Below are positions 1 to 59,224 of a stretch of DNA of 64,000 nt, in pieces. The notes beneath the pieces are model-generated. The model did no database searches. It saw only the letters and a list, made by a program, of their open reading frames with translations, and was not told the DNA's origin. This DNA is from Fibrobacter sp. (GTDB taxonomy: Bacteria > Fibrobacterota > Fibrobacteria > Fibrobacterales > Fibrobacteraceae): assembly GCA_017526585.1 (NCBI GenBank), contig JAFXRC010000041.1:62001-126000 (forward strand), in the 5' to 3' direction. The position numbers and the translations under genes were made by a program. Position 1 is the stretch's first letter. Each line of letters starts with the position of its first letter.

Positions 1-662
1 TGGGAACACGGGCACTTGAGTTCGAGCACCGCATCACAGGCCGGCTGGAAAAATCTCGGAAGTCCCGTTGAATGCATGTAGTGCGGATCCACCGTGTAGT
101 CAAAGCCGTTCTCTTCGCGAAAACGCATGCCGGTATCGATCGTCACGCGGGAATATTCTTCGCGAAGTCCGAACCAGGCGCGGCGCTTGTACTGCGTCAA
201 AAGGCGCGGATGGGCGTTGTAGAGTTCCGTCTTGTACAAGAAATCCTTCACGTACATGCGGTCCTTTTCGCCCTTGCACGGCCAGTCTTCGGGTTTCATG
301 TTCCAGACTTCGCCCGGGTTGATTCCCTTGATTGTGCCGCGGCTCTTATAGCAGATGTTTTTGATTTTGCGCTTGCATTCAAAGTGGAACGTTCCGTCTT
401 GAGCCGGGTGTTCGCCGTAGGTGCGAATGCGCATGTTGAAGCGGTCCAGGAGCTGTTTCTTTTTCCAGCCGAGGAACGTCCAGGACGGAGAATCCAAGTA
501 GAGGTTCGTAATCCAGTAGAATCCGCCCGGAGTAATTTTGGAGTAGTAGTCTTCTTCGCAGTACGGCGCAAGAAAGGCACCGATTCGATCGGCCCATTCC
601 ACGGGAATGTGGTACTTGAGTTCGAACCTTTCCAGAAGGCTAAATCCGCGGGCCTCGGCCAT
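1..662 (-). CDS. VTC-domain polyphosphate polymerase-like protein (C-terminus outside window)
   Basis: Reading the minus strand from the ATG at 662 gives at least 220 open residues that run off the left edge. The VTC-domain landmarks are in order: RFELKY (12-17), NLYLDS (53-58), R-x-R-x-YG (78-83), FECKRK (94-99), YKRRAWF (158-164), RVTIDTGMR (172-180) and VLELKCP (212-218). These charged residues line the tunnel that binds ATP and polyphosphate in yeast Vtc4, so polyphosphate synthesis or binding is the family expectation; activity here is inference. The ATG is one base after the stop of the TolC-like gene, so the two are probably translationally coupled. It is the last visible gene of an operon with DUF4956, HlyD-like and TolC-like genes. 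No membrane segment is visible in the part present. Confidence 0.85.
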   Translation of the reverse strand, partial: MAEARGFSLLERFELKYHIPVEWADRIGAFLAPYCEEDYYSKITPGGFYWITNLYLDSPSWTFLGWKKKQLLDRFNMRIRTYGEHPAQDGTFHFECKRKIKNICYKSRGTIKGINPGEVWNMKPEDWPCKGEKDRMYVKDFLYKTELYNAHPRLLTQYKRRAWFGLREEYSRVTIDTGMRFREENGFDYTVDPHYMHSTGLPRFFQPACDAVLELKCPCS

Positions 663-663
663 A

Positions 664-2073
664 CTACTTGAGTCCCCCTACTAGGTGGTTCTGCACGCCT
701 TCCTTGGAAAGCTTTCCTGCATACTGGAGCAGTTCCAGGTAAAGATCGTAAATCGTCGTTTCAAGCTTTGCAGCGTTCAGTTCGCTTTCGATGGCGCTTT
801 CGCGAGCGCGCAGCAAAAGCAGCGGATCAGAGCCCGCGTCTTTTGCAAACTGTTCAAAGATGTTGCCTTCTTTTACCTTGTCGGCGAAATCCTTCTGGAC
901 CTTCCACTGGGCGAGGTAGCCGTTAATTTGTTCTACAAGACGGTTCACCTTCACATTCACGTCGCGAAGCTTTGCCATGTAATCGCCTTCGGCATCGAGA
1001 TCGGCGACCTGGTTGCGCAAGTCATTGTCCTTGTTGCTGTCGAAGAACGGAAGCTTGATTGCAAGTGTTGCAAAGAACTTGTCGCGGGTGCGGCGGGAAT
1101 CATTGTCGTCCACCAGCTTGGTCAGCAGGTACTTTTCATTGTAGGAGACACAAACCTGTTCGCCCAGCGGATTGGTATCGTACTCGGAGCAGCCACCCTT
1201 TTCCATGTACTCGTCGTAATAGTCGCTGTAGACGCCGGAAACCACATCCTTGTAGTCCAGGTCCTTGTACTTTTTCATCAGGGACTCGACCTTCATGGAA
1301 TATCCAATGCCGATGTGGGAAATGTAATCATGGCGGCTCGCGACATCCTGCTTGGCACGGGCCTTTTCGGAATCCATCTTGCCCTTCGCCATCGCAAGCT
1401 GCGGGTAGTCTTCGGTCACTTCGATGCCACCCGAAAGCTGGGACTCAATTTCTTCCATGGACGGAAGCCACGTCGAATCCAGCTCGACACCATCAAAATC
1501 GGGAATCCATACACGGAGCTTCCTTTCGGAATTCTGGAGCGAGTTGGAATCGCTGATGAGGGCGGCACGGATCGAAGCTTCCTTTTCAAGCGCAGACATC
1601 AGGTCCTGCGGATTGAAACTTGCAGAGCCCGCCTTCATGTGCAGGACTTCGATGCGGTCGGAATTGACCTGGTAGAGTTCCTGGTTCAGCCGCTGGATGC
1701 GCTGGCGCATCAGGTAGTGGATGCCGCGCTCGTAGCGGTCGTAGAGCAATATGCCGCGGTCTTCGGCCAACTGTGCATTGGCGTATGCCATCTGCGCTTC
1801 GTAGTGGGCACGGTCGGCAGAACCTTCGCCAAAGGGCTTCGGCGTGAGACGCAGTTCAAAGTCGTGGCTAGCAAAGCTAAAGCCGTCGAGCTTGTAGCGC
1901 AACTCAAGCTTTTCCCACAGCTTGGTGTTGCGTGACGAAGCTATGTTTGCGCGCTTCTGCGAAGCCTGGTAGCGAAGGTCTTCATCGGCAGATTTGACAA
2001 GCGTCTCCCAGGTCAAGGGAGAGGCCATCAGCGGAGCCACCAGAAGCAAAGAAATAAAAGCAAAACGATTCAT
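664..2073 (-). CDS. TolC-family outer-membrane channel protein
   Basis: A 469-residue protein with a short signal peptide (about residues 1-18, ending MAS) followed by long heptad-rich helices, e.g. near 95-170 and 380-460, typical of the alpha-barrel of outer-membrane efflux proteins. TolC-family proteins form a trimeric outer-membrane duct that docks onto a periplasmic adaptor. The neighbouring upstream gene encodes such an adaptor (HlyD-like), but no ABC, RND or MFS pump is next to it; a DUF4956 membrane protein and a VTC-domain protein take that place. An Asp/Tyr-rich insertion near 265-320, with a pair of cysteines, is unusual. The substrate is unknown. Confidence 0.82.
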   Translation of the reverse strand: MNRFAFISLLLVAPLMASPLTWETLVKSADEDLRYQASQKRANIASSRNTKLWEKLELRYKLDGFSFASHDFELRLTPKPFGEGSADRAHYEAQMAYANAQLAEDRGILLYDRYERGIHYLMRQRIQRLNQELYQVNSDRIEVLHMKAGSASFNPQDLMSALEKEASIRAALISDSNSLQNSERKLRVWIPDFDGVELDSTWLPSMEEIESQLSGGIEVTEDYPQLAMAKGKMDSEKARAKQDVASRHDYISHIGIGYSMKVESLMKKYKDLDYKDVVSGVYSDYYDEYMEKGGCSEYDTNPLGEQVCVSYNEKYLLTKLVDDNDSRRTRDKFFATLAIKLPFFDSNKDNDLRNQVADLDAEGDYMAKLRDVNVKVNRLVEQINGYLAQWKVQKDFADKVKEGNIFEQFAKDAGSDPLLLLRARESAIESELNAAKLETTIYDLYLELLQYAGKLSKEGVQNHLVGGLK

Positions 2074-2090
2074 AAAATTTCATCCAATGG

Positions 2091-2119
2091 ATTGCTTCGC
2101 ACCCAAGGGTGCTCGCAAT
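2091..2119. repeat. Intercistronic palindromic repeat, ATTGCTTCGC/GCTCGCAAT family
   Basis: The element has outer arms ATTGC/GCAAT and a perfect inner hairpin GCACCC-AA-GGGTGC. It lies in the 53-base gap between the HlyD-like gene and the TolC-like gene. The same outer sequence occurs at 11290-11321, 58929-58957 and, in part, 11789-11822. In an operon mRNA it would fold into a stable stem-loop. Confidence 0.75.
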
Positions 2120-2126
2120 GACGTTC

Positions 2127-3191
2127 TTACTCAGAGATAGTGACCATTTCTCCCAGGAGGAACGGGTTTTCGCTAGGAATGGTGATGATCACTTCACGAC
2201 CGTGAACCGGCATTTCAGGCATTTTCCACATGCGTACCGGGAATTCCACGATACGACTGGAAAGACCCACCACCTTGCCCTTGACGGGCTTGCCCGTGCC
2301 ACTCAGGGTCTTCACCTTCACCGTTTCGCCCACATCCATGCGCTGGTACATTCTTTCGTGGATGTAGCCACGGACAAGCGTCGGAGACTTGTGGGTAAGC
2401 GTCACGATCGGAGCAAAGCTCGACACCTTTTCGCCATCGTGGACATTCACGGAACCCACGACCCAGCTTTCCTTGGCAACCTGGATCAGCTCCTCTTGCT
2501 GCTTCTTGAGTTCATCGAGTTCCTTCTTCAGGTTCTCGATTTCGCTCTTGCCGGCATCCTTCTGCAGGCGGTTGCTGCTCTTGAGGAGCTTGATCTGTTC
2601 ATTGGCGTTGGCGTTAGCCACGGCGAGCTCGTTCTTCAGGCTCTTGATCTGCATTGCCATGGCATCGTTTCCGTCAGTTGCTGAATTCGAATTCTTGAGG
2701 CTCTTGAGCTTGGAAGCGATTTCCTTGTTCTTCTTGTATTCCGATTCAAGTCGGTTGATTTCGGACTTGAGCGTAAGAGTCTTCGTGGCAAGGTCCGCCT
2801 TGACCGCCGCCACCTTCTGATCGATATCGGCGGCAGAAAGGTTGCTGCGGCCTTCGCTGGCATCCAGTTCGCGAGTCACTTCGGCAATACGGAGCGTAAG
2901 ATCGGGGCGGTTGAGTTCCACAATGGTGTCCCCCGCGTTGATGGACTGGCCCGGCATCACATGCACCTTGACCACTTCGGTCGGACTCGGAACACTGATG
3001 ATAGTTTCAGTCGCTTCGGCTATTCCCTGGAACGTAGCGATTTTGCCCTGATAAACAATACCCAGGATCACGGCGATAATCACGCAAAGCACCCAAGCAA
3101 TCGAAAGCTTGTGTCCGTAAAGGTAGGCCACACCGGCATTGTTCTTGTGCGTATTCCAGAAGTTATCGATTAAATCTTCAAGCTTGCTCAT
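2127..3191 (-). CDS. HlyD-family periplasmic adaptor (membrane fusion protein)
   Basis: The start chosen is the ATG at 3191, preceded by AGGAGTG at good spacing; an upstream in-frame ATG at 3221 lies inside the previous gene and has no site. The 354-residue product has one N-terminal membrane helix (about 31-47), a biotinyl-lipoyl-like beta segment (VHVMPGQSINAGDTIVEL near 85-102), a long coiled coil (about 110-240) and a C-terminal beta-barrel part with HERMYQRMDVGETVKV. This is the architecture of HlyD/EmrA adaptors, which link an inner-membrane partner to a TolC-type channel. The obvious inner-membrane partner here is the DUF4956 protein encoded immediately upstream (10 bases between genes), which is unusual for the family. 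Confidence 0.85.
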   Translation of the reverse strand: MSKLEDLIDNFWNTHKNNAGVAYLYGHKLSIAWVLCVIIAVILGIVYQGKIATFQGIAEATETIISVPSPTEVVKVHVMPGQSINAGDTIVELNRPDLTLRIAEVTRELDASEGRSNLSAADIDQKVAAVKADLATKTLTLKSEINRLESEYKKNKEIASKLKSLKNSNSATDGNDAMAMQIKSLKNELAVANANANEQIKLLKSSNRLQKDAGKSEIENLKKELDELKKQQEELIQVAKESWVVGSVNVHDGEKVSSFAPIVTLTHKSPTLVRGYIHERMYQRMDVGETVKVKTLSGTGKPVKGKVVGLSSRIVEFPVRMWKMPEMPVHGREVIITIPSENPFLLGEMVTISE

Positions 3192-3201
3192 ATACTCACT
3201 C

Positions 3202-3885
3202 CTACATTTCCGTCGTGGCATCCTGCATCATGAACTGCACGTCCGAGATGCCTTCGATCTTAGAAAGTTCACTCAGGATTTCTGCGGCGGGCTTAGTCGC
3301 ACGGAGACGGACCTGATAGGCCACATCAAGGCGAGCACCACCGTCGACTTCGCGCATCGTAATCAGGATAAAGGTCTTCAAGCTGGTCTTCATCAAGTTT
3401 TCAATCTGGCCACGGACACCCGCTTCGTTGGGGAGTGCAAAACGGAGCATGCCGTCAAAGAAGTGCTTGGTGCCAAGACCCGTACGCGAAAGAAGGAAGG
3501 CGACCAGGCAGAACGCAACCGTACCACCAACGGCAGCACCCCAGGCATACACACCACATCCGATACCCGCACCGAGCGAGGCGAACACGAACATGATGTC
3601 GCGGGGATCCTTGAAGCTCGTTCTAAAACGCACCACCGACAAAGCACCCATCATACCGAGACCGCGGCCCACGTTGTCGCCAATGGCCTGCATCACGGTT
3701 GCAGCCACCACCGCACTCAAGACGATCGCCTGCACAAAGTTTCTGGAATAGGAAAGTCCAAGGAAGGTCTTTTCGTAGGTCCAGGCAATCACCGAGGACA
3801 GGATGAACGTGAGAATCAAGGTATACGCCAATGTAATGAGAGTGGCATTGGCGGTGCCGGACTGAACGGCTAAAAGGTCTAGCAT
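3202..3885 (-). CDS. DUF4956 integral membrane protein
   Basis: 227 residues. Membrane helices are at about 13-34, 50-68, 98-115 and 116-133, followed by a cytoplasmic C-terminal alpha/beta domain (about 150-227). The conserved DUF4956 motif GALSVVRFRT is at residues 80-89, between helices. Function is not established for the family. From general knowledge, these genes often sit next to VTC-domain genes, and that is the case here. It is the first gene of the operon; the ATG at 3885 follows GGAG with five bases between. It may be the inner-membrane platform for the HlyD/TolC-like pair, which is inference from order only. The C-terminal segment resembles a small regulatory fold such as ACT. Confidence 0.82.
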   Translation of the reverse strand: MLDLLAVQSGTANATLITLAYTLILTFILSSVIAWTYEKTFLGLSYSRNFVQAIVLSAVVAATVMQAIGDNVGRGLGMMGALSVVRFRTSFKDPRDIMFVFASLGAGIGCGVYAWGAAVGGTVAFCLVAFLLSRTGLGTKHFFDGMLRFALPNEAGVRGQIENLMKTSLKTFILITMREVDGGARLDVAYQVRLRATKPAAEILSELSKIEGISDVQFMMQDATTEM

Positions 3886-4145: not shown

Positions 4146-5174
4146 TTAGCTAAACCGGCCAGCTCCAACGCGACGCTTTCGGCCCCTTTCGGACACAAGC
4201 GCTTCAATCAGGAACAGGAGTGCGGCAAGGCCAAGGAAAATCTGGTAACGGTCCTGGTAGTTTTCCATACGGTCTGACGACTGTTCCTTCTTTTCCAAGC
4301 TCGCAATTTCGGTAAGCACCTTCTGCAGCTGGAACTCGCCCGGGCTCGCATAGAAATACAGGCCTCCGGTGACGCTTGCGATTTCTTGCAGAGTACCGTC
4401 TTCCAAGCGGGTGGTCACGATGTTTCCCTGCATATCCTTCTTGTAGGCGACTTCGCCGTTCTTCGAAGGCACGGGAATAGGCACGCCTTCGCGGGAGCCA
4501 ATACCGATCGTGTAGATGCGGATACCCATCTCGGCAGCTTCCTTCGCGGCATTTACCGCTGCGGCTTCAAGCTCTTCACCGTCGCTCATGAGAATCATCA
4601 CCGAATACTGCCCGGCGCTTCCGGAATTCTTGTACAGCGACATGCCCTTGCGGATTGCATTTTCAAGGTTTGTTCCCGGCATGAGCCAGCCCGGAGCAAG
4701 TTCGCGGAGCATCATCTGCACCGTGCCATAGTCAAGCGTCAGCGGCACCATCACCTGGGCTTCACCCGAGAAGGCGACAAGCCCCACGCGGTCTCCCGAA
4801 AGCGATTCCAGGAACGCCGAAATCTCGTGGCGACTACGGGTCAGGCGGTTCGGCTTCACATCTTCGGCAAGCATCGAAAGCGAAATGTCCTGCAACAGCA
4901 CCAGATCGAGTCCGCGACGCTCGATATGCTCCATCTTGCGGCCCCACTGCGGACGCGCCAAGGCGACGAACAGGAATGCGATCGCAAACAAAAGTATCGT
5001 AACCTTCGCAAGCCTACGCCAGGGCGACACCGAAGTCGAGAGTTTAGGCAACATCGATAGCGAAACAAATCGGGCGGCAAGCTTTTTGCGGCGGTGGTAG
5101 GCATACACAAAAAGGAGCGCAAACAGAGGGAGCGTCAGTAAGCCCCACAAGAACATCGGTTCAGCAAATCGCAT
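4146..5174 (-). CDS. batB: BatB-like VWA-domain membrane protein
   Basis: 342 residues with two N-terminal membrane helices (about 8-26 and 58-73), a VWA domain and a final helix near 313-330. The metal-ion-dependent adhesion site is intact: DISLS at 96-100, then PGTNLE and SDGEE. The segment LARPQWGRK before the domain is typical of Bat proteins. Bat (Bacteroides aerotolerance) proteins are thought to form a membrane complex with a MoxR-type AAA ATPase for envelope maturation or stress. The gene follows batA by 12 bases and is followed by a terminator. No MoxR, DUF58 or TPR (BatC/E) gene is adjacent. Confidence 0.85.
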   Translation of the reverse strand: MRFAEPMFLWGLLTLPLFALLFVYAYHRRKKLAARFVSLSMLPKLSTSVSPWRRLAKVTILLFAIAFLFVALARPQWGRKMEHIERRGLDLVLLQDISLSMLAEDVKPNRLTRSRHEISAFLESLSGDRVGLVAFSGEAQVMVPLTLDYGTVQMMLRELAPGWLMPGTNLENAIRKGMSLYKNSGSAGQYSVMILMSDGEELEAAAVNAAKEAAEMGIRIYTIGIGSREGVPIPVPSKNGEVAYKKDMQGNIVTTRLEDGTLQEIASVTGGLYFYASPGEFQLQKVLTEIASLEKKEQSSDRMENYQDRYQIFLGLAALLFLIEALVSERGRKRRVGAGRFS

Positions 5175-5186
5175 CAGACACCTCCA

Positions 5187-6290
5187 TTACGGGATGCGCA
5201 CAAAGCGCGTATTCGCAAGCAACAGTTCTAGCAAAATAAGGACTGCACCCACCAAAAGCCACGGGTAGAACTTTTCGGCATAGCGGGCGTAGGCAACCGT
5301 CTCGATTTCGGTCTTTTCGAGTTCGTCGATTTCGGAATAAATCTTTTCGAGTTCTTCCTTGTTCTCGGCGCGGTAGAAGCGCCCGCCGGTCTTTTGCGCC
5401 ACGGACTTCAGCACGCCTTCGTCGATGCCTTCTTCGGGGGTGATGTCGCGTTCGCCCCAAGAAATTTCCCCTGTCCACGGATTCTGCTGAAAGGCTAGGA
5501 TCTTACCGTTCCTTTTGCCGACACCCACCGTGTAGACCTTGACTCCCAGCGACTGCGCCACATCGGCTGCGCGCATAGGCGGCACGACGCTCGCATTGTC
5601 GCGGCCATCGGTCAAAAGCACCACCACCTTGGACTTGGCCTCGGACTTCTGCAAGCGCGCCAGCGCGTTCATGAGCCCGTCTCCAATGGCCGTGCGGCTA
5701 TTCATCACGGAATCGCGGGCAAGATCGTCGGACGCTTTCAAGATTTCGAGTAGGGAACCGTAATCGAGAGTCAAGGGGCACTGCGTCACGGAACGGGAAC
5801 CAAAGGCAGAAAGACCGATGCGGTCGCTATGACGCTTCTGGATAAAATCGGCAATCACCTGTTGCGCATAGCCCAAGCGACTATATTTCCAGTAGTCGCC
5901 CGACTTGAGGATACGTTCGGCGTTCATCACGCCGAGTTTTGCCTGTTCCATGCGAGTAAGCATATCGAGCGTGCCCATGGAGCCCGAAACATCGAGTGCA
6001 AGCATGATGTCGACGCCGTCTGTGGAGGTGTACTCCACTTCCATGGCGTTCTGCGGGCGGGCCAGCGCCACGACAAAGCAGCAAAGGGCCGTAAGGCGGA
6101 GCAGAGGAACAATATGGCGGAACTTGACGCGGCGACTCGGGACGGCACGCTTTGCTATCGAAAGCGCCGGAAACTTGATAGTACTCTTGCGGCGGTGTTC
6201 ACGATAGACATACCATCCAATAAGTACAGGAGCCAAAAGCAGCAGCCAGAAGGCCTCGGGATTCTGAAAATGTAGCGCACCTAAATCCAT
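5187..6290 (-). CDS. batA: BatA-like VWA-domain membrane protein
   Basis: The ATG at 6290 is preceded by CGGAG with good spacing; an ATG seven codons earlier has no site. The 367-residue product has helices at about 13-29 and 59-76, then a VWA domain with MIDAS DVSGS (100-104), a threonine in NSRTAIGDG and LLTDGRDN, and a last helix near 345-362 (YPWLLVGAVLILLELLL). An insertion of about 30 residues after the MIDAS (MLTRMEQAKLG to RLGYAQQ) lengthens the domain compared with batB. It is the first gene of a two-gene unit with batB. The partner ATPase must be encoded elsewhere if the pair works like other Bat systems. Confidence 0.85.
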   Translation of the reverse strand: MDLGALHFQNPEAFWLLLLAPVLIGWYVYREHRRKSTIKFPALSIAKRAVPSRRVKFRHIVPLLRLTALCCFVVALARPQNAMEVEYTSTDGVDIMLALDVSGSMGTLDMLTRMEQAKLGVMNAERILKSGDYWKYSRLGYAQQVIADFIQKRHSDRIGLSAFGSRSVTQCPLTLDYGSLLEILKASDDLARDSVMNSRTAIGDGLMNALARLQKSEAKSKVVVLLTDGRDNASVVPPMRAADVAQSLGVKVYTVGVGKRNGKILAFQQNPWTGEISWGERDITPEEGIDEGVLKSVAQKTGGRFYRAENKEELEKIYSEIDELEKTEIETVAYARYAEKFYPWLLVGAVLILLELLLANTRFVRIP

Positions 6291-6388
6291 AAAATCTCCG
6301 AAAAATCGCAAAAATCAAATACTTTCGCGGAAGAATATACAAAAATGCGGCGAAAAAAGCTAGAAAGGCGGAATGGCAGTAGGAAAGA

Positions 6389-10621: not shown

Positions 10622-11788
10622 ATGAGTGACAAGGTGGCGGCAAGAATTGGGTGGATTGACGAGTTCAAGGGATTCGTGTTGTTGCTCGTGTGCCTTTATC
10701 ACGTGGAGCAGTCCTTCCCGCAGGCGCAAATGGGGATGTTACACCTGAGTGCGCTCCGCATGTCGGCGTTCTTCTTCATTTCGGGAATGCTTTTCAGCAC
10801 GCGGCGCTTTCCTGATTTCAAAAGCTACTTCATTCACAAGACGCGCGTATTGCTTTTCCCCTACATCCTGCTTTCGCTCCTGTTTCTGGCGCTAGATCCG
10901 GTGCTCTACAACTTTGACTTGTTCCCGAAGGCGCCGCGCATGACGGTCATGAATATAAAGCCCGAAATCGCGACCGTGTGGGATTACATCTACTGGAACC
11001 TCGCGAAAATATTTGTGGCCGGAAAATCTTCCATCGGATCGGGACCGCTGTGGTTCGTGTTCACGCTATATTCTGTGAGCTTGATATTTTACGGGGTGCA
11101 AAAAGTTACGGGTCGCATAAAAGCGCCGCGGGCAGCGACCATAATCATCGCCATTGCAAGCCTTGCGAGCGGCTGGATACTTTACAAGAACCACATCCGC
11201 CTGCCGCTCGGAATCGAGCGCGACTTGACGGTGTTGTTCTTCTTTGCAAACGGATGGCTGTGCAAAGGCGCAGTAAACAAATTTACTATGGATTGCTTCG
11301 CCACATGGGCTCGCAATGACGTGGGTGCTTTGCGTAACGGCACCATTCTCGCGGCAGCAGCAATCATCTCGTTTGTCACTTACGCCTGCATTGAGATCCC
11401 GGATCCGAATTTCAGCATCATGAACAACTACCTCGGAAAATCGTTCCCCGTATTCCTCGCCAGTTCCTTCTTTGGAATTGCGGGTCTTGTCGCCACATTC
11501 ATGTTTGCAGACAAACTACCAGACATCGCACCTATCCGCATCATCAAGGGAATTCTCCGCAACATCTCGCGCAACGCGCTCGTGATTCTCGCGGTGCATT
11601 GGTACATTCTTCTGGTTATGCGCTTGCTTTTCCGCGAAGCCTTCAACAGGCCCGGCATCGCCTATCTCGCCATCCCCGTGGTCGCAACCATGGTTATCGG
11701 GGCAATTCCGCTGTTCCGCTGCAGGCTTTACAAGCTGCTCGGCAAGCAGCCTACAAGCGCGCGCAGTGCTTTAAGCATACAGGAGTAA
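10622..11788 (+). CDS. Acyltransferase-3 family membrane protein with in-frame repeat insertion
   Basis: 388 residues, about ten membrane helices. IDEFKGFVLLLVCLYHVEQ (residues about 11-29) gives the helix-1 histidine, and MSAFFFISGML the next conserved segment, as in sugar or lipid O-acyltransferases. Residues encoded at 11290-11321 (MDCFATWARNDVG) are the translation of a dispersed palindromic repeat, placed in a loop between helices, so the gene appears to have absorbed the repeat without losing frame. The acceptor is unknown. Its N-terminus resembles that of the 6389-7426 gene. It is preceded by a CCGGCAT palindrome and followed by a truncated repeat. Confidence 0.83.
   Translation: MSDKVAARIGWIDEFKGFVLLLVCLYHVEQSFPQAQMGMLHLSALRMSAFFFISGMLFSTRRFPDFKSYFIHKTRVLLFPYILLSLLFLALDPVLYNFDLFPKAPRMTVMNIKPEIATVWDYIYWNLAKIFVAGKSSIGSGPLWFVFTLYSVSLIFYGVQKVTGRIKAPRAATIIIAIASLASGWILYKNHIRLPLGIERDLTVLFFFANGWLCKGAVNKFTMDCFATWARNDVGALRNGTILAAAAIISFVTYACIEIPDPNFSIMNNYLGKSFPVFLASSFFGIAGLVATFMFADKLPDIAPIRIIKGILRNISRNALVILAVHWYILLVMRLLFREAFNRPGIAYLAIPVVATMVIGAIPLFRCRLYKLLGKQPTSARSALSIQE
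11290..11321. repeat. ATTGCTTCGC...GCTCGCAATGAC palindromic repeat inside a gene
   Basis: ATTGCTTCGC, a 9-base centre, then GCTCGCAATGACG. It is the same family as the elements at 2091-2119 and 58929-58957 and lies within the acyltransferase reading frame. Confidence 0.75.
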
Positions 11789-11822
11789 TGGACCTCTTCG
11801 GGCTTACGCCCTCGCAATGACG
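11789..11822. repeat. Truncated copy of the CGCAATGAC repeat family
   Basis: The stretch after the acyltransferase stop contains GGACCTCTTC, a GGGC-TTAC-GCCC hairpin and CTCGCAATGACG. The right end matches the other copies while the left ATTGC arm is missing or diverged. It is in the 51-base convergent gap before the FISUMP gene. Confidence 0.6.
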
Positions 11823-57352: not shown

Positions 57353-59224
57353 CTACTTCACGATTTCGGCGTCCTGCACCTTCTTGCCATTCACGGTTTT
57401 CGGGCCGTTGGCGCCGCCATCGCGACGAATAATCTTGTACTGAATGATGCTCCAGAAGTTAGACACAATCCAGTAGAGCACAAGGCCAGACGGCATCACC
57501 GCGCTAAAGAGGAACATCATGGCGGGCATCATCCACACCATCATCTTCTGCTGGGCGGGGTCCATGGCGCCGTTGCCACTCATGGTGACCTTCGTCTGGA
57601 AGTAGGTGGTGACCACCATGATCCAGGGGAGGAGAGCTAGGCCGTCGGGCATGATGAACGGGATACTGATGCCGTGGAAAATCACATCGCTACGGCTGAG
57701 ATCGGTAATCCAGAGGAATGCCGGCATGCCGCGGAGTTCAACGGCGCGGCCGAGCACGAAGAAGAGGCCCATGAAGATAGGCATCTGGATAATCATCGGG
57801 AGACAGCCGCCGGTGCAGCTGGCGAGCGGGTTCACGCCGTTCTTGGCGTAAAGTTCCATGATGGCGGCCTGCTTCTTTTGCGGATCGCTGCGGTACTTCA
57901 CGTTGATTTCGTCTAGCTGCGGCTTGAGCTTGCCCATAGCGGAGGTCGACTTCATCTGCTTGATGGTAAAGGGCGTCGTAAAGCCGCGAACGATGAAGGT
58001 CACGAGGATAATGGCGACACCGTAGTTCGGGATAATCGAGTAGAAGAAGTTGAGCAGCTTGAGGAGCCACTTGCAAATCCAAACGAACCAGACGCTGGAA
58101 CCGGGGAACCACTTGGAGCCCGTCACAATGATCTTTTCGTAGCCCTGGCCGAGAGACTCGACGACATCCCACTGAAGCGGGAGAACCATGAAGTTGTATG
58201 CAACGGAATCGCCACGGACTTCATCTGCGATGGAGAGGCTGTAGGTACCCGGATCAGGAACCTCTTCGGTAGCGACCTTGATGTGCTTCGCATTTACCTT
58301 GGCGGGCACCGGCTTGTCGAACTGCACCGACATCGCCACGTACTTGCGGCGAAGCCCCACCCAGTAGTAGTTAGCCTCGTCAAACGCCATGGCGTCAGAG
58401 AAGGTTTCGCGTTCGGTGATTTCGCTGTTCTTGAAGATTACCTCGCTAAAGAAGTAGCTGGTGCCGCCGAAGCTCTTGCCCTTCGGAATCACTTCGGTTT
58501 CACGCATGCCACCCTTCCAGGAGAGCTCGTAATTTTCGACGCGGAAACCCTTGAACTTGTTCACCTGACGGACAGCGACGCCCGACTTGGTAAAGCCGTA
58601 GCTACGCACCAGCTGGTTGCCGTTGGCATCGGTAAAGACGAACTGGACTTCGGTATCGTTTTCGACATTGATCCATTCCGGGGCATCGACATCGAACATG
58701 ACTTCGGAAAGGTCCGCACCGCCAAGTTTCAAGTCGAGAGCACCAAGAGCTGTATCTTGAATAAGTTCGGGGAAATGGTTCGCGGAATCCGGCAGGGCCT
58801 TGACGATCACGCTCTGGACCTTGCCGCCCTTGTTGGTAAGGGTCATGATGAACTTGTCAGTTTCGACGGTGACCGTGCGCGGGGCAATCACCTTCGGGGC
58901 TTCAGGGGCAGCGGCGGAATCTGCGGTGGATTGCTTCGCTTCGCTCGCAATGACGTTTGCGCTATCGGCGCCGGATTCAGTTGTCGGAGTTGCGGCACCG
59001 AGGACCGGGGCGGCCTTGACTTCGGCCGTGGAACCCGGAAGCAGCAGTCCGTTTGCAGACGGGGCCTCGGAAGAATCGACCACCTGGGCAGCGGCAGCCT
59101 TCTCGGCGGCCTTTTTCGCCTGTTCGGCCCTGGCCGCAGCCTCGTTGTTCGCGCTGGTCGACATGAACCACCAAATCATGATGGCACCGATAAGGATCGA
59201 TCCGACGATAGTATTCTTGTTCAT
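57353..59224 (-). CDS. yidC: Membrane protein insertase YidC (with repeat-derived insert)
   Basis: The ATG at 59224 overlaps the yidD stop (TGATG) and gives 623 residues. An N-terminal helix (about 6-22) is followed by a low-complexity Ala/Ser/Glu-rich linker, a large periplasmic beta domain (about 140-370) and the conserved insertase core with five helices (GVAIILVTFIVRGFTTPF, PIFMGLFFVLGRAVEL, MMVWMMPAMMFLF). YidC inserts and folds inner-membrane proteins. The linker contains VIASEAKQS, the translation of a dispersed palindromic repeat (58929-58957), tolerated because the linker is flexible. In operon rpmH-rnpA-yidD-yidC. Confidence 0.95.
   Translation of the reverse strand: MNKNTIVGSILIGAIMIWWFMSTSANNEAAARAEQAKKAAEKAAAAQVVDSSEAPSANGLLLPGSTAEVKAAPVLGAATPTTESGADSANVIASEAKQSTADSAAAPEAPKVIAPRTVTVETDKFIMTLTNKGGKVQSVIVKALPDSANHFPELIQDTALGALDLKLGGADLSEVMFDVDAPEWINVENDTEVQFVFTDANGNQLVRSYGFTKSGVAVRQVNKFKGFRVENYELSWKGGMRETEVIPKGKSFGGTSYFFSEVIFKNSEITERETFSDAMAFDEANYYWVGLRRKYVAMSVQFDKPVPAKVNAKHIKVATEEVPDPGTYSLSIADEVRGDSVAYNFMVLPLQWDVVESLGQGYEKIIVTGSKWFPGSSVWFVWICKWLLKLLNFFYSIIPNYGVAIILVTFIVRGFTTPFTIKQMKSTSAMGKLKPQLDEINVKYRSDPQKKQAAIMELYAKNGVNPLASCTGGCLPMIIQMPIFMGLFFVLGRAVELRGMPAFLWITDLSRSDVIFHGISIPFIMPDGLALLPWIMVVTTYFQTKVTMSGNGAMDPAQQKMMVWMMPAMMFLFSAVMPSGLVLYWIVSNFWSIIQYKIIRRDGGANGPKTVNGKKVQDAEIVK
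58929..58957. repeat. Palindromic repeat inside yidC
   Basis: GGATTGCTTCGCTTCGCTCGCAATGACG. On the coding strand it reads as VIASEAKQS. It belongs to the same family as the elements at 2091-2119 and 11290-11321. Confidence 0.8.

Follow-up and report, generated by a model that had tools for sequence, protein, structure and literature searches.

A conserved gene cassette of diderm bacteria proposed to couple VTC-type polyphosphate synthesis to a HlyD/TolC conduit

The analysed stretch of Fibrobacter sp. DNA (64,000 nucleotides, referred to here as the window) begins within a widely conserved gene system for which our literature search found no description. The system combines a VTC polyphosphate-polymerase domain protein and a DUF4956 membrane protein with a HlyD-type periplasmic adaptor and a TolC-like outer-membrane channel, and we lean towards regarding it as a synthesis-coupled, pump-free machine by which diderm bacteria secrete polyphosphate. 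This function is a well-supported prediction, in which we infer that VTC is active, that DUF4956 contacts both VTC and the adaptor, which way transport runs and which polymer is exported.

Gene content and distribution of the cassette

A sequence-only reading of the window had described four minus-strand genes separated by 10, 53 and 1 bases, and both the coordinates and the Pfam matches agree with it. The features are as follows:

3202..3885, minus strand: DUF4956 inner-membrane protein, 227 aa (PF16316, 46.3 bits against a cut-off of 30.6)
2127..3191, minus strand: HlyD/EmrA-type periplasmic adaptor, 354 aa, with one N-terminal transmembrane segment (HlyD_3, 41.6 bits against a cut-off of 22.2)
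2074..2126, minus strand: intergenic gap between the adaptor and channel genes, with a hairpin and a copy of the dispersed repeat GTCATTGCGAGC (2111-2122)
664..2073, minus strand: TolC-like outer-membrane channel, 469 aa, with a signal peptide (AlphaFold2 model and Foldseek; OEP match in the ortholog from locus L063)
3..662, minus strand: window part of the VTC polyphosphate-polymerase domain protein (PF09359, 83.1 bits against a cut-off of 23)
2111-2122, 11309-11320, 11810-11821 and 58943-58954: copies of the repeat GTCATTGCGAGC, one of them with one mismatch

The VTC gene is cut by the window edge; in full (G000:C49:61832-62662) it encodes 276 aa and scores 102.3 bits against the cut-off of 23. 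The sequence-only reading had raised the possibility that a CotH kinase gene follows it beyond the edge. None lies directly after VTC at this locus (seven CotH genes are found elsewhere in this genome), and 30 bp past VTC, outside the window, there is instead a gene for a lipoprotein of 562 aa with three stretches of the LTD (lamin-tail) domain. The Fibrobacterota unit comprises five genes, coding for DUF4956, adaptor, channel, VTC and LTD proteins. Upstream of DUF4956 (window 4146-6311) we also observed BatB- and BatA-like von Willebrand factor A genes, which adjoin the cassette only in some members of the genus.

The hairpin pointed out earlier in the 53-bp gap is indeed present, but it carries a dispersed short repeat rather than a conserved element: GTCATTGCGAGC occurs four times in the window with at most one mismatch, against 0.32 copies expected. 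Because the adaptor and channel genes overlap or nearly abut in most orthologs, the gap itself is not conserved, and we discarded the hairpin as a conserved regulatory element; it has no part in the mechanism proposed below. An Rfam scan of the window gave no match.

DUF4956 was found in 133 of the 168 Fibrobacterota genomes, including 75 of the 80 from the genus Fibrobacter. The order DUF4956-HlyD-TolC-VTC-LTD is kept across family f1 and the classes or families f4, f5 and f7, and the four core genes are present in the f10 locus (L072). When species genomes were scanned with the DUF4956 alignment, 271 relatives emerged. All four genes occur in loci from Desulfobacterota (including the complete genomes of Desulfonema magnum and Desulfoluna limicola), Gammaproteobacteria, Bdellovibrionota, Nitrospirota, Calditrichota and Delongbacteria, where the group names are those of the record titles and most records are metagenome bins; loci from Campylobacterales and Planctomycetota are cut by contig ends. 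Conservation of the gene order beyond close relatives, which the sequence-only reading had left to be checked, therefore extends to at least seven bacterial groups, with the order outside Fibrobacterota being either DUF4956-HlyD-TolC-VTC or HlyD-TolC-VTC-DUF4956.

Of the unique loci with conduit-class DUF4956, 61 are flanked by 5.5 kb or more on each side; 60 of these contain all four genes, and the exception (L182) has lost the adaptor. A further locus (L208:6014-9764) has DUF4956, adaptor and channel genes with no VTC gene nearby. Conduit-linked DUF4956 is a distinct class, and other classes of this family pair with VTC without the conduit: in Fibrobacterota themselves, a second, canonical class counts 17 loci; VTC adjoins it in all or nearly all of these, and HlyD and TolC are lacking. 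Such conduit-free pairs occur in diderms too, possibly with another location of the product.

Outside Fibrobacterota the distribution is sporadic: the cassette is present in 16 of 291 genomes of the class Desulfobacteria, 5 of 251 of the order Methylococcales (one of them broken), 3 of 369 sampled from a gammaproteobacterial class, 2 of 197 of the class Nitrospira and 10 of 129 of the class on the Bdellovibrio side. This pattern suggests that the cassette has been transferred as a unit. The distance matrices of the four proteins are correlated (Mantel r 0.65-0.86, reached by none of 2000 permutations), a value from which the species phylogeny is not removed.

Putative polymerase, membrane partner and conduit

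The family profile of the VTC protein matches the structure of yeast Vtc4 (3g3q, E 9.5e-8), and Pfam finds in the 276-aa protein the VTC domain alone, with no SPX; a Vtc1-type (DUF202) domain is absent from all proteins of the operon according to Pfam. In the alignment of 32 VTC proteins, R78, R80, K97, K106, R160, R172, E214 and K242 are invariant and correspond, in that order, to R264, R266, K281, K294, R361, R373, E426 and K458 of Vtc4, where the Vtc4 numbers beyond R264, R266 and E426 follow from the alignment offset and from background on Vtc4. The R264A/R266A/E426N mutant of Vtc4 is catalytically impaired (PMC9911596). Our literature search found nothing direct on polyphosphate in Fibrobacter or on the activity of bacterial VTC proteins, and no report of a bacterial VTC shown to make polyphosphate.

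PPK1 was detected in only 3 of the 80 genomes of the genus Fibrobacter. Both PPK1 and PPK2 are absent from the sampled high-quality Fibrobacter genomes G000, G062, G105 and G136 and from the complete genomes of D. magnum and D. limicola. If these organisms make polyphosphate, VTC is the only recognised candidate for its synthesis. A strict replacement of PPK1 by the cassette was rejected, since some cassette genomes also carry PPK1 or PPK2.

The AlphaFold2 model of DUF4956, of moderate confidence (pLDDT 76.7, pTM 0.55), has five predicted helices followed by a cytosolic beta-alpha ACT/MgtC-like domain. Foldseek returned weak matches (E about 1e-2) to ACT domains and to the C-terminal domain of MgtC (2lqj), which are confined to this C-terminal part; the protein shows no likeness to known polymer channels, and a search of its profile against solved structures found nothing. 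Five positions, R74, R86, R88, K92 and R95, hold a basic residue in 80% or more of 53 homologs and sit at the ends of the third helix, where they may form a path for a polyanion. DUF4956 is accordingly proposed here as a polyphosphate translocon, and the view of the sequence-only reading that it is the only membrane candidate of the operon is borne out.

The remaining two proteins would form the conduit. The family profile of the adaptor matches EmrA structures (E 1.6e-6), and the adaptor often carries, or precedes, a propeller-like domain with a weak phytase-like match. The channel protein of the window has no Pfam match, although its ortholog in L063 scores 27.7 bits against the OEP cut-off of 22. 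No real relative of the channel family emerged when its profile was searched against solved structures, and we therefore resorted to structure prediction: the AlphaFold2 model calculated from 44 homologs (mean pLDDT 87.8) is matched by Foldseek to TolC, OprM, SilC and CusC, with E values from 3e-11 to 1e-9.

Proposed mechanism, neighboring genes and alternative readings

In the mechanism that we propose, VTC would polymerise the gamma-phosphate of ATP into polyphosphate at the cytoplasmic face, and DUF4956 would take the nascent chain and hand it across the inner membrane, a role played in eukaryotes by the Vtc transmembrane domains. The HlyD-type adaptor and the TolC-like channel would provide the route through the periplasm and the outer membrane. 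The driving force would be chain elongation, so that no ABC, RND or MFS pump would be needed, and partners at the surface or in the periplasm (LTD lipoprotein, CotH kinase, phytase-like propeller) would use, anchor or trim the product. In monoderms VTC and DUF4956, with or without CotH, would suffice, which fits the Gram-positive gene sets (PMC7112168, PMC2879425). The outline of a polyphosphate-coupled export machine on a DUF4956 platform was already contained in the sequence-only reading; its pump-free conduit and its link to polyphosphate are supported, and the LTD gene and chain growth as the likely driver are additions.

CotH kinases, in many cases LTD fusions, are encoded next to the cassette in Desulfobacterota, Calditrichota, Delongbacteria, some Gammaproteobacteria and the f7 and f5 Fibrobacterota. 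CotH is an alternative partner in these other lineages, and its presence there points at least partly to surface-protein modification. According to one alternative, which we regard as unlikely, VTC and DUF4956 make polyphosphate or a nucleoside phosphate that mainly acts as a phosphoryl donor or regulator for secreted CotH-type kinases, which modify surface proteins, and the conduit exports some other surface polymer or protein; CotH adjoins many loci of both the conduit and the conduit-free classes, and in Gram-positive bacteria the CotH-VTC-DUF4956 sets occur together with Pel polysaccharide genes (PMC7112168), but CotH is missing from the window operon and from most loci of Fibrobacterota family f1, and neither a glycosyltransferase nor any other cargo gene is a recurrent neighbor of the cassette. 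A tentative extension of the secretion mechanism is that the polymerase-driven, pump-free tripartite conduit may put polyphosphate on the diderm surface and that CotH-type kinases outside the cytoplasm, for which a source of ATP is not obvious, may use the polymer as phosphoryl donor.

Several other proteins adjoin the cassette in particular lineages. Bdellovibrionota loci encode a large protein of about 1110-1150 aa with no Pfam match (L122:12729-16058, L125:12469-15798, L130:4411-7857, L203:13088-15556, L204:10058-13510), which has an invariant N-K-N/H-D pattern, appears kinase-like by eye and may replace CotH. A gene pair, one member of which has a PPDK_N ATP-binding domain, was seen in L096:4734-7891, L104:816-3880 and L143:1-4003; in L096 and L143 it immediately precedes the cassette. 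A Calditrichota bin (L120:4993-7002) encodes beside the cassette an arylsulfotransferase-like protein with LTD and a C-terminal sorting domain.

A minority of loci have phosphate-related neighbors. A PHO4 phosphate transporter gene is inserted between TolC and VTC, inside the cassette, in L202:3358-9545; in L129 PHO4 lies 24 bp past VTC, with a phytase-like PF13449 gene next to it; and in L132 VTC is followed by pstS-phoU-pstC-pstA. A phytase-like PF13449 protein is also encoded beside VTC in L126, L189 and L059. The three adjacencies of phosphate uptake genes, found in three lineages, are unlikely to be due to chance, as judged from the rarity of such genes per genome and not from a matched control. 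L101 and L128 have two-component genes close to the cassette; a reading of these as PhoB/PhoR was not supported, as they score below both cut-offs and are closer to other families.

No ABC, RND or MFS transporter is encoded in the operon, and none recurs near the cassette in other phyla, which upholds the earlier claim of a conduit without a pump of its own. An improbable alternative is that the conduit uses a pump from another gene set, e.g. the ABC-2 exporter just downstream, and that VTC and DUF4956 are only co-expressed. In this genome a set of genes for TolC2, HlyD2 and two ABC-2 membrane proteins does start 135 bp past the LTD gene, but such a set lies after the operon in no more than 8 of 25 Fibrobacterota-type loci examined, all but one of them from the genus, and it has its own adaptor and channel. 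We therefore rejected the ABC-2 exporter as a general answer to the missing pump, and no dedicated pump stands directly after VTC. In L003:7703-12978 the corresponding set of TolC2, HlyD2 and two ABC-2 permeases includes no gene for an ATP-binding subunit.

Still less probable is that VTC is a tripolyphosphatase or another triphosphate-tunnel enzyme and that the cassette, with an MgtC-like DUF4956, serves to sense or release phosphate or cations: the activities of triphosphate-tunnel folds are diverse and the DUF4956 tail weakly matches the curated MgtC/SapB model (23 bits, below the cut-off of 214), but the Pfam VTC matches are strong, the residues important for Vtc4 polymerisation are all kept, and a TolC conduit is hard to square with a sensor role.

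Relation to known systems and significance

One of the closest known parallels to the proposed polyphosphate secretion machine is the eukaryotic VTC complex, in which cytosolic synthesis is coupled to translocation along a basic path, driven by chain growth as proposed (PMC9911596). Both systems have a catalytic VTC domain, its active-site residues and a membrane partner with conserved basic residues, but the cassette lacks the SPX and Vtc1-type (DUF202) domains, DUF4956 is unrelated in sequence to the Vtc membrane domain, and the target, which is the vacuole in eukaryotes, would here be the cell exterior, reached via HlyD and TolC. The Gram-positive CotH-VTC-DUF4956 sets, i.e. the Pel accessory genes (PMC7112168) and NELoc-2 of C. 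perfringens (PMC2879425), share VTC and DUF4956 with the cassette, and CotH with several cassette lineages though not with the window operon; they lack the adaptor and the outer-membrane channel, and the DUF4956 of the cassette forms a separate, conduit-linked class. EmrAB-TolC and HlyBD-TolC, representing tripartite efflux and type I secretion, share an EmrA/HlyD-type adaptor and a channel of the TolC fold, whereas the cassette has no ABC, MFS or RND component and its inner-membrane partner is DUF4956 together with a polymer synthase. Synthase-dependent secretion of cellulose (Bcs) and Pel is comparable only in its way of working, with a polymer that grows at the inner membrane and passes into a conduit across the envelope: the polymerase of the cassette is a VTC domain, a glycosyltransferase is absent, and the conduit is of the HlyD/TolC type and not a TPR beta-barrel.

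Bacterial VTC proteins are common in annotation, and the cassette offers a concrete putative role for them, while naming DUF4956, a family without an assigned function, as the putative membrane partner. Our literature search found no pathway that explains the placement of bacterial polyphosphate outside the cell, and pump-free threading of polyphosphate through both membranes appears not to have been described yet in bacteria. If the proposed mechanism is true, polymer growth can take the place of a pump in driving a TolC-type conduit. The mechanism would likewise suggest a reason for the retention of VTC in Fibrobacter, a major degrader of fibre in herbivore guts, after the loss of polyphosphate kinases.
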